DNA from: an uncultured Verrucomicrobiota bacterium
Lineage (GTDB): Bacteria; Verrucomicrobiota; Verrucomicrobiia; Palsa-1439
DNA length: 47,871 nt
Assembly: GCA_903825435.1 (NCBI GenBank)
Contig: CAIKAP010000186.1
Span: 1 to 47,871 of the forward strand
Direction of reading: 5' to 3'
Positions 36,244 to 47,360 of the stretch are shown here, in pieces (the stretch's first letter is position 1; each line of letters opens with the position of its first letter). Under the pieces are notes generated by a model that ran no database searches, was not told the DNA's origin, and saw only the letters and a list, made by a program, of their open reading frames with translations. Made by a program: the position numbers and the translations under genes.

Positions 36244-36392
36244 AACAGGAACGGTGAGGAGCATACCCCATCACCTTCCATAGGTCAATTAGCGCCATAC
36301 GTACGCCTTATCGGGAAAGGCATACGCGTGTATGATTGACTTGCATCAATGCCGCTGTTATTGTCAAGCAGAGAATAGGAGAAACTGCTGCG

Positions 36393-37154
36393 ATGAAAAC
36401 AGTTCAAACCGCTACAGACTACAGACGGAAGAAACCAATTGCCTTTACCCTGATAGAGCTGTTGGTAGTGGTTACGATCATCCTCGTTCTGGCTGCCCTC
36501 CTGTTTCCTGCCCTTGCGAACATCAAGGAAAGAGCGAACCGTGTAAAGTGCGCAAGCAATCTGCGCCAAATAACAACCGCCGCTATTCATTTTGCTTCCG
36601 AGACCAAGTTTGATACTGATGTCAAAATAATAGCTAGCGCTGCTGCAGGTGTGCAGGCATATGGCCAATTGCCGCTTCGCTCTACCTGGTGGGGGACGAA
36701 TACGCTGACTGGTACTACCAGTGCGGATTTCATCGGTGGGGATATTTGGCCATACCTCGGCAGAACCAATAACATCGGCATTCCTGGTAACCCGGAAATC
36801 CTTCGCTGCCCATATGACAAGGTTCCGTCAACCGCCTGTAAAGCATGGAAGGACAGCTCCTACGTCATGAACGATTGCGTTTACGCAAATCCTGCCCCTT
36901 ACTCCGGGAGGCAAAAAGTTCTCTATTGTTATCCTGCCGATGCCGTGTTTTTCTACGAAGCCAACCTTTCTACTGTTAATCCAGGCGGGCTTTATTTGAA
37001 TCCAGCCGCGAATAAATTAACTAGCCGTCACGCAAATGGTGGCAACCTGAGTTGTTTTGATGGTCATGTCGAATGGATGTCAATCGCTGAATGGAACGCA
37101 TTGGCCGGAGTCAGTGCAGGCACAACTAATCGGCTATACCCTTTCGGCAACTAA
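36393..37154 (+). CDS. Prepilin-like protein with H-X9-DG motif
   Basis: [43 protein letters not shown] and [12 protein letters not shown] (exactly H-X9-DG). Confidence 0.93.
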
Positions 37155-37217: not shown

Positions 37218-39629
37218 TTAGTTCGTCAAGTAATGCAGGTACTTGATTCGAAACTTGACCTGCTTGCCAGCAGGTGCGGCGAGATCTTCGTACCGCTCTA
37301 CAACTGCATGCACGACAACTTCACCAATAACTATGTCAGTGCCCGCGTCGAAATTTCCGTCTGCGTTTACATCCACAATAGCTTGTCCAATAGCCCAGAT
37401 GCTGAATGTGCTGGACCGGGTCGTGATGAGGTTGGCGATGGCACGGACACCAGCTTCGCGTATGGATTTTTTGTTTGCCACTCCGTCGGCGACTCCAGCG
37501 ACTTCGCAAATTTCGCCGACCATTGAATAGCCGCTATTGGTGAATATCGTCCCGAACACATTGAGTGTCCCCCAGTTGGATATGGGGCGATATTGACGGA
37601 TGCTGTTGTTCCAATTCCGATTCTGGATATCGGCCACGTTGAGGGACGCAAGAGAGGTGTTGGTGACGAGAGCGATCAGTACGTCTTGACGCAATTGGCT
37701 TGGCGACGGGTACAGCCATTGAAATGGATATACGATGTATACTGTGTCGTTGATGTTGATGCGGCCTGCCACTGGCTCGTTAGTCGTGGTGAACAGGTCC
37801 AGCATGGCCCAGTCGGGAATGCTGTTTGTTTCCGACACGGGCGCAGGCCCCATACACAAAGTCCGCCACGGCACCCCGGTGTGGATGTAGCCAAGTTCAC
37901 CGAGTGATTTGATGGGGCTACCCGCAACGCTGCCGATGTTGGTGTGGCAGGACCAGTCGGCATCATTACCGGTAATGACGGAATCACTGACGAGCGGCAC
38001 GGAACAGCCGAGTACGGTGTTGGTGAGTCTGTATGTGTTGTACGCGCCACCCTGTCCGTAGCTACCAGAGTTCCAGCCGCCTAGAGTCCCAACGACAAAC
38101 GTCGTCCCACCGCCGAGGCAGTTCCAATACGTATTGACCGGTCTGCAACGCGGATCTATAGAAGCGCTGCCCCAGATCAAATTCGTCACTGGATTAAAGA
38201 AGTCCGGAGCGCCAGCCATAGCGGCTTTGAGAGTGTACGTGTGGTTCGTCATCGGAATGTGGGCATAGTCAAACCGTTGTAGAGGGAGTACCTTTTGAAA
38301 GACCCCGGTGACCATTCCGGAGTTGAAAGTGACGGTGACGTCACTCAAGTTAGCGTTCGTGAACGCGTACTTTTCCGCGCTCACCACCAGTGCCGTGTAC
38401 ACCCCAAAATTCCCCACCACAGGAACCATGACGCCAGTGATGCCGCTCAGCGCGTTGGGATTCGGAAATGTCTTGGTCTGCCCACTGCTAAACTTGATTG
38501 AAGGCTGGTTATAAAGCGTAACGCTGTGCGAAGTCAGAGGATACGAGATCGACGGGTACATATACCACAACTCGACATAGGTAGTTGAATCCATCTGCAC
38601 CATCAATTGGCCTAAAACATTGGTTGCCACTCGAAAGGAATTGGAAACGATTAGCTCATTCAGATAGGGCGTCCGCTGAAGGCCGAGATAGGTTGGCGGA
38701 TTCCCAAGACTATCGACAACGGTGGTGCGGGGGACACGGTAGGCGACGATGTTGGCTGCGATTTGCAGGCAGTTACTCCCGTACTTTTGGGCAAAGGTCA
38801 TCGGGAATAAATTTGTGAGATTGGGGTTTTGGAGATAGGCTGCTATATTTGTAACTAGGTCCGAAGGGAGCGAATAACTTTGGTTGAGGTTGAAGCAGGG
38901 AGCGCCCCACGGTGTCAACTTGGTGTTGGCACTGTAGGCGGTGATGTTAAAAATGCCGTTCATGCAGTCTTGAGTGCTGATGGCAGATGACGACCCCATC
39001 GGCCAGGAGCGTTCGGTCGGATAGCCAGCACTCGTTGCCGTGGTGTAGGAGGTATTGGGTTGGACACTCGCACCGAACACTCTCAGGTCAATGTTCGTTG
39101 GGGTACTACCAAGTGGATCTCCCCGTTGTTTGGCGGTGTTAATGTTGACCTTGCTGGCATCGTCGTCCACCCAATAGGCGTAGCGACCGACAAGGCCCGG
39201 TTGTCCCCATGTATAGTTGATCCAGTTGGCCGTGATGTTTGTTGTTGTGATGCCAGTGATACGTGCGCCCGCGTTGAGATCACAGCTGCCATTAGCCCCC
39301 ATACTGTACATTGAGACAGAGAAACCTACACCGTTGGTGCGAGTGAGAATCAATCCCGGTGCTGTGATATAAGAAGTGGTCGGTGTGATCTGTGGGGTGG
39401 CGGTTCGAAGCTGCATGACAGCCGCATCGATGCCAGCCAAAGCCATTTCTCTCGCTCTGATTTGGTCGCTGAAGGCAAGCGCGGCACTGTTCTCGATGCG
39501 CATGCTAATGGCAAAGGCAACAACCAGAATCGTTACGAGCACCAGTATGGCGAGGGTCAAGATGAGCGCAACGCCACGCTCGTCACGATGGCGGTTCAAG
39601 AGACGGTTGTTCATATGGAGAATCCTCAC
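37218..39629 (-). CDS. GspK/PilX-like minor pseudopilin (large, ~800 aa)
   Basis: RGVALILTLAILVLVTILVVAFAISMRIENSAALAFSDQIRAREMALAGIDAA; last gene of pseudopilin operon. Confidence 0.8.
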   Translation of the reverse strand: MRILHMNNRLLNRHRDERGVALILTLAILVLVTILVVAFAISMRIENSAALAFSDQIRAREMALAGIDAAVMQLRTATPQITPTTSYITAPGLILTRTNGVGFSVSMYSMGANGSCDLNAGARITGITTTNITANWINYTWGQPGLVGRYAYWVDDDASKVNINTAKQRGDPLGSTPTNIDLRVFGASVQPNTSYTTATSAGYPTERSWPMGSSSAISTQDCMNGIFNITAYSANTKLTPWGAPCFNLNQSYSLPSDLVTNIAAYLQNPNLTNLFPMTFAQKYGSNCLQIAANIVAYRVPRTTVVDSLGNPPTYLGLQRTPYLNELIVSNSFRVATNVLGQLMVQMDSTTYVELWYMYPSISYPLTSHSVTLYNQPSIKFSSGQTKTFPNPNALSGITGVMVPVVGNFGVYTALVVSAEKYAFTNANLSDVTVTFNSGMVTGVFQKVLPLQRFDYAHIPMTNHTYTLKAAMAGAPDFFNPVTNLIWGSASIDPRCRPVNTYWNCLGGGTTFVVGTLGGWNSGSYGQGGAYNTYRLTNTVLGCSVPLVSDSVITGNDADWSCHTNIGSVAGSPIKSLGELGYIHTGVPWRTLCMGPAPVSETNSIPDWAMLDLFTTTNEPVAGRININDTVYIVYPFQWLYPSPSQLRQDVLIALVTNTSLASLNVADIQNRNWNNSIRQYRPISNWGTLNVFGTIFTNSGYSMVGEICEVAGVADGVANKKSIREAGVRAIANLITTRSSTFSIWAIGQAIVDVNADGNFDAGTDIVIGEVVVHAVVERYEDLAAPAGKQVKFRIKYLHYLTN

Positions 39630-39632
39630 GGG

Positions 39633-40331
39633 CTAATGGCTCGGTAAATAAACGTCTAGACTGAACGTGCGCGCTGCGGAATTCGTAATGTTGTTGAAAA
39701 CAGCGGAACCAGAAGCGGCGTTAGCTTTGGCCAACCGGGCAGCGGCACGACTGTCAACGATGGTCAGTGAGAGTCTGACAGAAACAGGATTTTGGTTTCC
39801 CCCTGGCAGCGCGCTAGACCATGTTTGATTTGAAGCTACAATTGTCGCGTATTGAAATGACACATCCACTACGTTATCCACCAGAACGTCTCCCCCATTG
39901 GCATCCGCTGTGAGCTTCCAGTTATTCCCAGTCCCAACCGTGAATGTGTTTGTAGCGGTACGGCGCAGGGAGCACAAGCCGTTGGACTCCGTATTCATTT
40001 GGTAGGTGATTGTGAGGATGTCAGGCAGACCGTCATTAGCTGCTGCGGGAAACGCGATCCAGTCAGCACCACCTTGGAGAATTAGTGGCTGGGGATCGGA
40101 ATTGGTGCGCAAGACGGCTTGCGAAATGTCACGCGCAAATAAGTCTAACGCGGCACGGGCCTGCACAAACGTTTCAACTCTATTTTCGGTTAGTAGCCAG
40201 GCTTTGCTGGCCTGATTAAACGCTCCAAACAGAATGGCGCTCAGAATCGCAACGATGGAAATGGCCGCCAGCATTTCCAGCAATGTAAACCCCTCCGCGT
40301 ATCGCGATGATGGAGCCAAGAGTCGTTTCAT
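39633..40331 (-). CDS. GspJ/PilW-like prepilin
   Basis: GFTLLEMLAAISIVAILSAILFGAFNQASKAWLLTENRVETFVQARAALDLFARDIS. Confidence 0.85.
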   Translation of the reverse strand: MKRLLAPSSRYAEGFTLLEMLAAISIVAILSAILFGAFNQASKAWLLTENRVETFVQARAALDLFARDISQAVLRTNSDPQPLILQGGADWIAFPAAANDGLPDILTITYQMNTESNGLCSLRRTATNTFTVGTGNNWKLTADANGGDVLVDNVVDVSFQYATIVASNQTWSSALPGGNQNPVSVRLSLTIVDSRAAARLAKANAASGSAVFNNITNSAARTFSLDVYLPSH

Positions 40332-40753
40332 GGAATCGAATAGTCCGAAATAACGGTATAGTAGTAGTACTGCGCGTATTTGCTATGGCAACTCCACACT
40401 AAGGCGTAATACTTCCTGCTATTGCTCGTAATCATGTCAGGCTGTATCTGTACTTTGAAGTAGTAATCCGAGTACACCCTCACGCCGTTTATGTCGTACC
40501 ATCGTTCGTTGGTAGCACCCGAAGTATTATTCACAGCACTCGGATTGGCGCGAATTTCGGTAAACCGTCTCTCCACGAGCAGGGCAGCCATGGTATGTTC
40601 TAGAGCTTGGCTGGCATTTTGTGCTGTGTTGGTTAGCAGGGCGAGTATTCCCATCAAACCAATAAAACAAACCGTAACAGCGATCAAGACTTCCGCCAGT
40701 GTGAACCCAGCGCAATGACCGCGCCTGAATTTGGAGAGAGATTGTGGTTTCAC
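40328..40753 (-). CDS. GspI/PilV-like prepilin
   Basis: GFTLAEVLIAVTVCFIGLMGILALLTNTAQNASQALEHTMAALLVERR. Confidence 0.85.
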   Translation of the reverse strand: MKPQSLSKFRRGHCAGFTLAEVLIAVTVCFIGLMGILALLTNTAQNASQALEHTMAALLVERRFTEIRANPSAVNNTSGATNERWYDINGVRVYSDYYFKVQIQPDMITSNSRKYYALVWSCHSKYAQYYYYTVISDYSIP

Positions 40754-41379
40754 GGGCGGAGAATCTGAATGCGGCCGACAAGAGCCTTGTAAACAATGTC
40801 GACCCGGTTGCTGTTTAACACGTAGGCTGGCGTGCCATCAGATCGGCGGGTACCCTCATAGATACTTAGGGTGCCAGCGTTACTACCACCGCCCGTTGGA
40901 CTGGTCGCCGCACCGGTGGGTTTGAACTCGATATAGGCAACGGTCCGGGTGCCAAAGCCAAAGTCCATATCCGTACTGTTTAGGCTTGACGCATCATTCA
41001 ATGAACCATTCGTCACACTGCTGTTACCAAAAAGGGCGCCAAGTGGGAGGCTTTCCCAGTTTCCAACTTGGCACCAGCATTCCGGATCGGTTATCATATT
41101 GGTGCGGGCGATGACAGTGTAGGTGCCGTATTGCTTGGAAAGGTTTAGGTCCTGTGTGGTTCCGTCGTAATAGAAAACGACTCGGGTATTGGTGTGTCGG
41201 TTGATGGCGTACTGTCGAGCCAGGTTGAGTGTATTGTAAACAGCCCGGCTACCGGAGGAGACGGCAGTGGCGCGAAAACTCGACAATGCGGGAAGTCCGA
41301 GTGCCAGCAATATGCCTATCAACAGAACGACAGATAGCAACTCAAGTAGAGTAAATGCATTTTGACATCGGGGGGGCAT
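40750..41379 (-). CDS. GspH/FimT-like prepilin
   Basis: FTLLELLSVVLLIGILLALGLPALSSFRATAVSSGSRAVYNTLNLARQYAINR. Confidence 0.85.
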   Translation of the reverse strand: MPPRCQNAFTLLELLSVVLLIGILLALGLPALSSFRATAVSSGSRAVYNTLNLARQYAINRHTNTRVVFYYDGTTQDLNLSKQYGTYTVIARTNMITDPECWCQVGNWESLPLGALFGNSSVTNGSLNDASSLNSTDMDFGFGTRTVAYIEFKPTGAATSPTGGGSNAGTLSIYEGTRRSDGTPAYVLNSNRVDIVYKALVGRIQILRP

Positions 41380-41389
41380 AGCGCGCCTC

Positions 41390-41920
41390 TCACCAACTCG
41401 TACAAACCGAATCAAGGTCATTCGCCGTATCCTTGCTAGTGCCACACGTGCCACCCGCAGGCCCAAATGACCACACCCAAACATTGCGAGATGCATAGCT
41501 TGTTACGCCAGCAAAGGGATACCCAACGCCACCGCCACCCGCATTGGCACCACTGAAATCACCGTCGCATCGGAACCGATACGGCTGCCTCCAAGGATCA
41601 AGATAGTTCCCGGTACTGTCAACACTTCCCTTCCTAGTTGAAAAATCGTAAAAGTTTATGCTCCGGGTATTCAGAAATGTATTTGTCGCAATGTTATAAC
41701 AATTCTGGTTGTTGGTAGGCCAATACCCAAACTCCGTGTAAAATGCTTGGAAAGCTGCTGATAAGTTACGCGCCTCGGCTGTTGCCTTTGCTTTCTGAGC
41801 CGAACGGATCGCGGAACTGATAGCAGGAAACAAAAGCCCAGCGAGAACACCTATGATACTGATTACTACGAGTATTTCAATCAATGTGAATGCGCGCTGT
41901 TTTCGGAAATCTCTTTTCAT
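41390..41920 (-). CDS. GspG-like prepilin
   Basis: [58 protein letters not shown]. Confidence 0.88.
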   Translation of the reverse strand: MKRDFRKQRAFTLIEILVVISIIGVLAGLLFPAISSAIRSAQKAKATAEARNLSAAFQAFYTEFGYWPTNNQNCYNIATNTFLNTRSINFYDFSTRKGSVDSTGNYLDPWRQPYRFRCDGDFSGANAGGGGVGYPFAGVTSYASRNVWVWSFGPAGGTCGTSKDTANDLDSVCTSW

Positions 41921-41942
41921 GGCAGTTGCTCCTTGCATTGAT

Positions 41943-42488
41943 CTATTGCGTCCAGTTGCGATATACCACACTATTGTCCACGCCGATAACCCACAAATCA
42001 TACCCGCCTAGGTTATGGGTGCCAGGGCAAACATATTGGTATTCATTGCCAGCAGGATTGGCGAGTGGATTACTACCGTTGATCCAGCCGGCTTGAACAG
42101 TGCCACCTGCTGAGTCCACATAATGTTCAGCACCATCGGGACCGTGATTGTAATCCCATCCCTGCAAATAGCCTCCACCGAAGCCATCAGCATCGAGAAA
42201 CCTCCCTAAGAGATGGATTCCTTGCCTGCTACCGGCCCATTCTTTATCAGCGCCTGTACCGGCTGCATATGGACTCGCCAAGTTGGTCGGTGGATAATAC
42301 CCATTGTTAGACTTATACGCTTCGATGGCCAATTGGAGAGCCGCAAACTGTGCTTGGCATTTACCCTCAAGGGCTTTCCTTTGCATATACCGGGCACTAC
42401 TAAAAATCATCGAGACTAAGATTATGATGATAAAAACCACCGCCAGCAACTCAAGTAACGTAAACCCTTTGTTTTTAGTCGTCTTCAT
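41943..42488 (-). CDS. GspG/GspH-like prepilin
   Basis: GFTLLELLAVVFIIIILVSMIFSSARYMQRKALEGKCQAQFAALQLAIEAYKSNNGYYPP. Confidence 0.88.
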   Translation of the reverse strand: MKTTKNKGFTLLELLAVVFIIIILVSMIFSSARYMQRKALEGKCQAQFAALQLAIEAYKSNNGYYPPTNLASPYAAGTGADKEWAGSRQGIHLLGRFLDADGFGGGYLQGWDYNHGPDGAEHYVDSAGGTVQAGWINGSNPLANPAGNEYQYVCPGTHNLGGYDLWVIGVDNSVVYRNWTQ

Positions 42489-42766
42489 CTCTCTCCTCTC
42501 GAACGTAGCTCAGTTTCAAGCTTCTCGCTGAGCCACTGTTTCATCATGCTCTGATAATTCAAATATCGCGACCGCGCCAGCCGTTTGATTCGCGCCAACA
42601 TCCGTGGGTCAAAACGTAATGTGATCGTCGTTGACTCGCTCTGGTCAGGACCCGCCACCGATTGTTGCATCAACTTCGCATCCAGCCGGTGCGACAGCCA
42701 GAAGTCGGCCTCGTCACTCTCCGACTCGAAGAACGGTATGTTCTCCCATTTCATCACGAGATCCAT
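42485..42766 (-). CDS. CopG/BrnA-type ribbon-helix-helix antitoxin
   Basis: MKWENIPFFESESDEADFWLSHRLD... STTITLRFDPRMLARIKRLARSRYLNYQSMMKQWLSEKLE; overlaps toxin gene upstream and pseudopilin downstream. Confidence 0.8.
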   Translation of the reverse strand: MDLVMKWENIPFFESESDEADFWLSHRLDAKLMQQSVAGPDQSESTTITLRFDPRMLARIKRLARSRYLNYQSMMKQWLSEKLETELRSRGER

Positions 42767-43038
42767 TCCGATACCTTCCTCTCGTAAAAGTAGCACTCCT
42801 CCTGCGTCATCTCCCTTGCTGCAAAGACGCGTATCTGTTTGCCATCCGACCGATACACACTGAAAACTCCTCGTCCCGACAAAGTCTTCCCCAAGCAAAA
42901 CGTTCGCGATTCCTTTGCAAACCGAGGCGAATCAGGGAAAAGACGGATCCCGTGAGGATCCTCAAAAGACTCTTCAATCTCGCGAGTCGTCGGTCCTTCT
43001 TTCGTATCGAATGGCTGCTCTGACCAGTCAAAGTCCAT
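42754..43038 (-). CDS. BrnT-family toxin
   Basis: FDWSEQ... REIEESFEDPHGIRLFPDSPRFAKESRTFCLGKTLSGRGVFSVYRSDGKQIRVFAAREMTQEECYFYE; start may alternatively be 43047. Confidence 0.82.
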   Translation of the reverse strand: MDFDWSEQPFDTKEGPTTREIEESFEDPHGIRLFPDSPRFAKESRTFCLGKTLSGRGVFSVYRSDGKQIRVFAAREMTQEECYFYERKVSEWIS

Positions 43039-43056
43039 ATCCTCCATCCACACAAT

Positions 43057-43086
43057 GTATCTACATCGTACATACCAACATGTCAA
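43057..43086 (-). promoter_or_regulatory. Sigma70-like promoter with overlapping inverted-repeat operator candidate for the TA-pseudopilin operon
   Basis: Minus strand TTGACA (43086-43081), 17-nt spacer, TAGATA (43063-43058); inverted repeat GTATGTAC-GAT-GTAGATAC (43075-43057, 7/8 match) covers spacer and -10. Confidence 0.6.
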
Positions 43087-46199: not shown

Positions 46200-46586
46200 T
46201 TAGTACGATCCCCAGTCAATTCCCACACCGTCCAACGCGCTCTTGGTCGCGTCAGAAACCCTGAATTGATTTGTGCCGACAGTGCCGATGACGAATGAAT
46301 TGCCGAGTGAATCAATGGACCTCCAAGGCACTTTTAGGTAGGTTGCAATTGCAGATTCATTACCAGCAACTGTATCTCCATCTTTTTTTCCGTTTTCTAG
46401 CGCCCACTGATTGATCGCATTGTCCTGTACCCGCGCATCGTTGACGATACGACGGCCTTGGGACACCTTGCGCGATTTCACGAATGTCGGCATTGCCAAG
46501 ACAGCCAGCAGCCCAATAATGGCTACAATGATCATGATTTCTAACAGCGTAAAAGCTGCAGCTTTGTCGGTGGTTTTGCATTTCAT
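46200..46586 (-). CDS. Small GspG-like pseudopilin
   Basis: FTLLEIMIIVAIIGLLAVLAMPTFVKSRKVSQGRRIVNDARVQDNAINQWALE. Confidence 0.92.
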   Translation of the reverse strand: MKCKTTDKAAAFTLLEIMIIVAIIGLLAVLAMPTFVKSRKVSQGRRIVNDARVQDNAINQWALENGKKDGDTVAGNESAIATYLKVPWRSIDSLGNSFVIGTVGTNQFRVSDATKSALDGVGIDWGSY

Positions 46587-46733: not shown

Positions 46734-47111
46734 TTAGAACTGACCCCAGTCAATTCCTACGCCATCCAACGAACTCTTGGTCGTGGTGGCGATCTTCATC
46801 TGGTTGGAGCCAACCGTGCTGATTGTGAACGAATTACCCAGCAGGTCAGTATCTTTCCATTCGCCCTTCAGATAGGTAGCGGCCTCTGACGTTGTGACGG
46901 TGTCGCCGTCCTTCTTGTGTTTCTCTAGTGCCCATTGATCAATGGCTGAGTCCATCTGACGCGCATCATTCAGGATACGACGGCCTTGCGATTGTTTACG
47001 AGCTTTCACGAAGCCCGGAATCGCCAACGCTGCCAGCAACCCAATGATAGCCACCACGATCATGATTTCCACCAGAGTGAATGCTTGGTTTTTTCGGGTG
47101 TCTCTCATCAC
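46734..47111 (-). CDS. Small GspG-like pseudopilin (tandem paralog)
   Basis: FTLVEIMIVVAIIGLLAALAIPGFVKARKQSQGRRILNDARQMDSAIDQWALE; aligns along its length with the 46200-46586 product. Confidence 0.93.
   Translation of the reverse strand: MMRDTRKNQAFTLVEIMIVVAIIGLLAALAIPGFVKARKQSQGRRILNDARQMDSAIDQWALEKHKKDGDTVTTSEAATYLKGEWKDTDLLGNSFTISTVGSNQMKIATTTKSSLDGVGIDWGQF

Positions 47112-47282: not shown

Positions 47283-47360
<78 letters not shown>

Follow-up and report, generated by a model that had tools for sequence, protein, structure and literature searches.

A putatively domesticated BrnT/BrnA-like gene pair as the probable regulator of pseudopilin operons in Verrucomicrobiia

At the head of a six-gene pseudopilin operon of an uncultured Verrucomicrobiota bacterium (contig CAIKAP010000186.1, positions 1 to 47,871, the 47,871-nucleotide stretch analysed here and hereafter called the window) lies a toxin-antitoxin (TA) gene pair which has probably been domesticated into a dedicated regulator, most likely a repressor, of pseudopilin operons, acting in cis at this locus and in trans in other genomes. 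The suggestion of the initial annotation that a TA repressor could regulate the pseudopilins receives strong comparative support from a candidate operator-promoter found in cis only at pilin-linked loci, from a single site in the window's own genome and from trans sites before pseudopilin cassettes elsewhere.

On the minus strand, a BrnT-like open reading frame is followed by an overlapping CopG/BrnA-like one and by six prepilin-type genes ending at 37218 (Table 1). All coordinates of the initial annotation, in which the pair headed a six-gene pseudopilin operon with overlaps, were re-checked on the sequence and agree. The start of the BrnT-like protein at 43038 is preferred from the family alignment (M(D/E)FDW), the ATG at 43047 being an alternative. 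The models of the Verru_Chthon cassette (TIGR02600, TIGR02598, TIGR02599 and TIGR02596) all match the window operon, each below its own cut-off, the Verru_Chthon A protein of the window (803 aa) being shorter and divergent.

Table 1. Features of the pair, its upstream region and the pseudopilin operon (window positions).
Feature	Position	Strand	Evidence or remark
-35 element TTGACA	43081..43086	-	read from sequence
-10 element TAGATA	43058..43063	-	17 nt from -35, inside candidate operator
Tandem palindromic candidate operator GGTATGTACGATGTAGATACA	43056..43076	-	14/16 consensus bases; conserved in pilin-linked relatives
BrnT-like protein	42754..43038	-	Pfam; AlphaFold model, pLDDT 90.5; Foldseek; residue loss
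CopG/BrnA-like ribbon-helix-helix protein	42485..42766	-	PF12441 over cut-off
Pseudopilin 1, GspG-like	41943..42488	-	T2SSG and N_methyl; start overlaps antitoxin stop (ATGA)
Pseudopilin 2, GspG-like	41390..41920	-	profile matches; start inferred
Pseudopilin 3, GspH-like / Verru_Chthon D	40750..41379	-	TIGR02596 E=2e-11; start inferred
Pseudopilin 4, GspI/PilV-like / Verru_Chthon B	40328..40753	-	TIGR02523 E=2e-11, TIGR01707, TIGR02598
Pseudopilin 5, GspJ-like / Verru_Chthon C	39633..40331	-	TIGR02599 E=2e-12, TIGR01711
Pseudopilin 6, GspK-like / Verru_Chthon A	37218..39629	-	TIGR02600 E=1e-39

The TGA of the antitoxin-like gene overlaps the ATG of the first pseudopilin at 42488-42485. At about 10 of the 26 pilin-linked loci the first pilin could start at such a 4-base overlap, and at most of the others a pilin start is possible 3-32 nt past the antitoxin stop. 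The conserved feature is the tight packing of antitoxin and pilin, not the exact overlap. A strong independent promoter and terminator between antitoxin and pilin had been named as a finding that would count against coupling, and no promoter above chance was detected at this junction (10 promoter-like sites in the region versus 7.3 +/- 2.6 expected) by a scan which missed the likely promoter before the pair because its -10 rule requires a final T. Several T2SSE-type ATPases are encoded in the same genome and could serve the pseudopilus. Further prepilin-type genes are present in the window: two short tandem genes of very similar sequence lie upstream of the locus on the minus strand (46200-46586 and 46734-47111), near a tRNA-Pro (47283-47359), and another with weak DUF1559 similarity (36336-37154, plus strand) converges with the operon end.

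The BrnT-like protein matches PF04365 (BrnT_toxin) with E=5e-7 and 30.3 bits, below the 34.5 cut-off, and has no NCBIfam match. When its AlphaFold model was submitted to Foldseek, as the initial annotation had recommended, the best matches were the BrnT structures 7vd7 (prob 1.00) and 3u97 (0.96), and the predicted structure retains the BrnT fold. The Lys-His dipeptide equivalent to K16/H17 of BrnT is absent from 74 of 74 family sequences (66 parsed by script and the other 8 read by eye) and is kept in the alignment by five ordinary BrnTs, including one of the window genome and one of a genus-mate. The DxxHS motif is also lost in the family, in which D5, E24, D28, R46, R76 and E82 are invariant. 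The toxicity of BrnT itself depends in part on K16, H17 and R72; in RelS, substitutions of the K and the H abolish toxicity (PMC13284704). Judged by these residues, ribonuclease toxicity appears to have been lost in the BrnT-like protein, and the idea that loss of the operon would be toxic, as in addiction, is not supported, since the Lys-His needed for BrnT toxicity is absent family-wide. An ordinary BrnT with a KHG motif lies in the same genome at the edge of contig C183 (L001, 8-199).

The second protein matches CopG_antitoxin (PF12441) with E=1e-9 and 39.4 bits, over the cut-off of 28, and BrnA more weakly; 24 of its 93 residues are invariant among 25 antitoxin-like sequences. Its structure model is weak (pLDDT 74.5), and a profile search of the PDB returned nothing useful. 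This CopG/BrnA-like ribbon-helix-helix (RHH) protein is likely the DNA-binding subunit.

Upstream of the pair, a tandem TGTANNTACA-N-TGTANNTACA arrangement overlaps a TTGACA-17-TANATA promoter, the operator consensus TGTAAATACAnTGTAnnTACA corresponding to two palindromes 11 bp apart. At a threshold of at least 13/16 the consensus was found at 23 of 25 pilin-linked loci versus 0 of 55 others (Fisher p 4e-18, relatedness not corrected). At L122, one of the two loci below this threshold, the operator probably lies beyond a misassigned start. TTGAC[A/G] at 16-18 nt from TANATA was present at 21/25 pilin-linked loci versus 0/55 others. An operator at its own promoter, as for a CopG/BrnA-type RHH antitoxin, is indicated, on sequence evidence only, at these 23 pilin-linked loci, and was not found in other lineages. 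Pattern searches of the window's own genome (3.43 Mb) returned a single site with at most 2 mismatches, namely the one before the pair.

In genomes whose pair does not adjoin pilins, 30 non-adjacent sites were inspected, of which 16 have a prepilin or Verru_Chthon A gene immediately after them, an automated rule recovering 11 of the 30 and the other 5 of the 16 having been judged by eye. These 16 sites represent 14 genomes of 6 families (G117, G266, G354, G295, G169, G198 with two, G290, G048, G103, G151, G170, G363 with two, G041 and G221, the prepilin motif being nearly 300 bases from the site in the last two) and are partly orthologous, so that independent events number fewer than 16. Automated scoring of pilin starts after sites gave 11/30 versus none in an 873 kb background of other loci, and at representative targets NCBIfam confirmed the A, B and C cassette proteins, A and B over cut-off. 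Two multi-cassette genomes (G151 and G169) have one site locus each. In pair-less genomes, including the cassette-rich G046 and G047, no operator site was found before pilins. A scrambled version of the palindrome matched at 4 sites across 40 genomes, none of which was at a pilin; the genome list was partly picked for real sites, which biases the comparison of counts and, to a lesser degree, that of locations. The remaining 14 of the 30 sites do not precede pilins, and some precede other TA modules; near-consensus sites were seen before AbrB/MazE-like and RelB-like antitoxin modules at L206, L242, L271, L272 and L288. In family f3, which from the tree and names looks like Akkermansiaceae, no site of the window consensus was found in any of 9 genomes with the pair.

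Where the initial annotation saw an unusual case, a TA joined to an operon, the comparison shows a gene pair conserved across the class. The antitoxin-like gene is present in 197 of 384 class genomes, nearly always in single copy, about half of the sampled genomes being without the pair, and most genomes compared are metagenome-assembled. Among 57 relatives the antitoxin-like protein was found in 27 and the toxin-like protein in 28, with one strong copy each. Both genes are present in 80 of 81 loci (80 named plus the window), and inside the family the pair proteins share 64-77% identity versus only about 38-45% for the GspK-like protein. Named records with the pair come almost exclusively from Verrucomicrobiota, among them Haloferula, Rubritalea, Roseibacillus, Limisphaera and Verrucomicrobium. 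In 241 genomes of the phylum outside the class, one genome has a strong relative and all other matches score no more than about 55 bits; the plasmid matches are ordinary BrnA-like proteins, none above about 41% identity. The pair does not show the patchy, multi-copy, horizontally moving profile of a mobile or accessory TA module. A chance TA insertion was ruled out by the single-copy occurrence, the joint presence of both genes and the pair tree; a mobile element was ruled out for close relatives by the plasmid matches. The pair and Verru_Chthon A co-occur (40/45 versus 15/29 genomes, Fisher p 0.0007); given their shared ancestry, this counts as supporting evidence and no more.

Downstream of the pair, pseudopilins were found at 26 of the 81 loci (25 named relatives and the window), a VanZ-like gene (PF04892) at 24 and other genes at 28, the sequence ending at the remaining 3. 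The named loci (80) were not sampled at random but are those that match the window's family best. When the two proteins were placed in a tree, the pilin-linked loci grouped in a single clade with support 100/99, with one exception. The order of pair and pseudopilins is kept in 25 named relatives; relatives with this operon that always lack the pair, the refuting case named in the initial annotation, are not what was found. The single clade implies a stable linkage that had one origin or was retained once. The exception, L123 (CAIKBP010000095.1), is the only member of this clade whose pair has no pilins after it; its operator is degenerate (11/16) and its genome about 53% complete. In many Verrucomicrobiales the pair adjoins a VanZ-like gene or has no common neighbour, and the searches there returned no operator. 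The VanZ-like membrane protein gene follows the pair directly in Akkermansiaceae and relatives (L137:1800-2201, L170:10301-10702 and 22 more loci), and upstream of these 24 pairs the operator of window type is absent. A pilin-only role throughout the class was ruled out by the 24 loci with VanZ-like and 28 with other neighbours; the comparisons point to pilin control for part of the class.

In the mechanism that we propose, a TA module would have been turned into a dedicated transcription regulator, whose RHH protein would bind the two tandem palindromes overlapping the -10 and repress the promoter from which all eight genes, the pair and the six pseudopilins, would be transcribed. A pair of RHH dimers on palindromes over the -10 fits operon repression. 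The BrnT-like protein, still encoded next to its partner and seemingly dead in catalysis from its residues, would probably serve as corepressor or sensor, and some signal would relieve repression. Autoregulation in cis would result for the window and its clade, and in other lineages of the class the regulator would act in trans on a distant pseudopilin cassette. DNA binding, repression over activation and the corepressor role are what we infer from sequence comparison.

Three other readings were weighed against this regulator. The pair could still be a working TA, the BrnT-like protein remaining toxic through an altered active site and the pseudopilins being kept by addiction or shared transcription. 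For it speak the retention of both genes in overlapping, toxin-first order, the retained BrnT fold and several invariant arginines and acidic residues. We nevertheless consider this unlikely, since the Lys-His that matters in BrnT and RelS is missing from all 74 family sequences while ordinary BrnTs keep it, and since the pair is single-copy, vertical and class-wide, has no close relatives on plasmids and is found with quite different neighbours. In a slightly less likely reading the pseudopilins would be activated by the regulator, or both activated and repressed, in the way that AmrZ, also an RHH protein, acts on some of its targets. RHH proteins are capable of both (AmrZ, PMC3325190), and many trans sites have no recognisable -35/-10 overlap; against this reading, the -10 box lies under the operator in the pilin-linked clade and at the trans sites of genus g72 in family f41, which fits repression.

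Least probable of the three is that the pair autoregulates its own two genes only, the pilins lying downstream by history under separate control. Pairs with other neighbours in other lineages speak for it, whereas the tight packing onto pilins, the restriction of the upstream operator to the pilin-linked clade and its recurrence in trans before pilins all argue against it. Dedicated regulation of pseudopilin operons by the pair is retained as the best explanation. A wider scenario, which we hold only tentatively and at somewhat less than even confidence, is a single domestication in the class ancestor giving a two-protein switch over pseudopilus genes, composed of an RHH DNA reader and a dead BrnT sensor or corepressor carrying the signal, which would act on adjacent genes in one clade (in cis), on distant ones in others (in trans), and would have been rewired elsewhere to other targets such as VanZ-type genes.

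The type II TA system BrnT/BrnA of Brucella abortus resembles the window pair in its toxin-antitoxin order, overlap, BrnT fold and RHH antitoxin controlling its own operon; the window family differs in lacking the catalytic Lys-His and DxxHS motif, in being single-copy and core-like in one class, and in having its operator also before pseudopilin operons. The Verru_Chthon models match both the window pseudopilins and the trans targets. MqsA-type antitoxins act on outside targets such as csgD and are thus alike in regulating surface-structure genes, but MqsR stays an active toxin whereas the toxin partner here looks dead, and the pilin link is seen repeatedly, in cis as well as in trans, in different families. 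AmrZ of Pseudomonas aeruginosa is linked to type IV pili. It is likewise an RHH regulator, of virulence genes (PMC3325190), but is not TA-derived and has no BrnT-like partner. In the literature searched, there was no paper on Verru_Chthon cassettes and no described regulator of them, and titles and abstracts on TA-derived pilin regulators and on BrnT in Verrucomicrobia contained no such case.

Taken together, a whole TA pair, not an orphan antitoxin alone, has seemingly been turned into a conserved regulator, and sequence-level evidence exists for its targets as well as for the loss of the catalytic residues known from the toxin. For the Verru_Chthon pseudopilin cassettes, which have been little studied, the pair and its upstream palindromes provide a candidate regulator with a candidate operator, and a 'toxin-antitoxin' annotation of the window pair would mislead.
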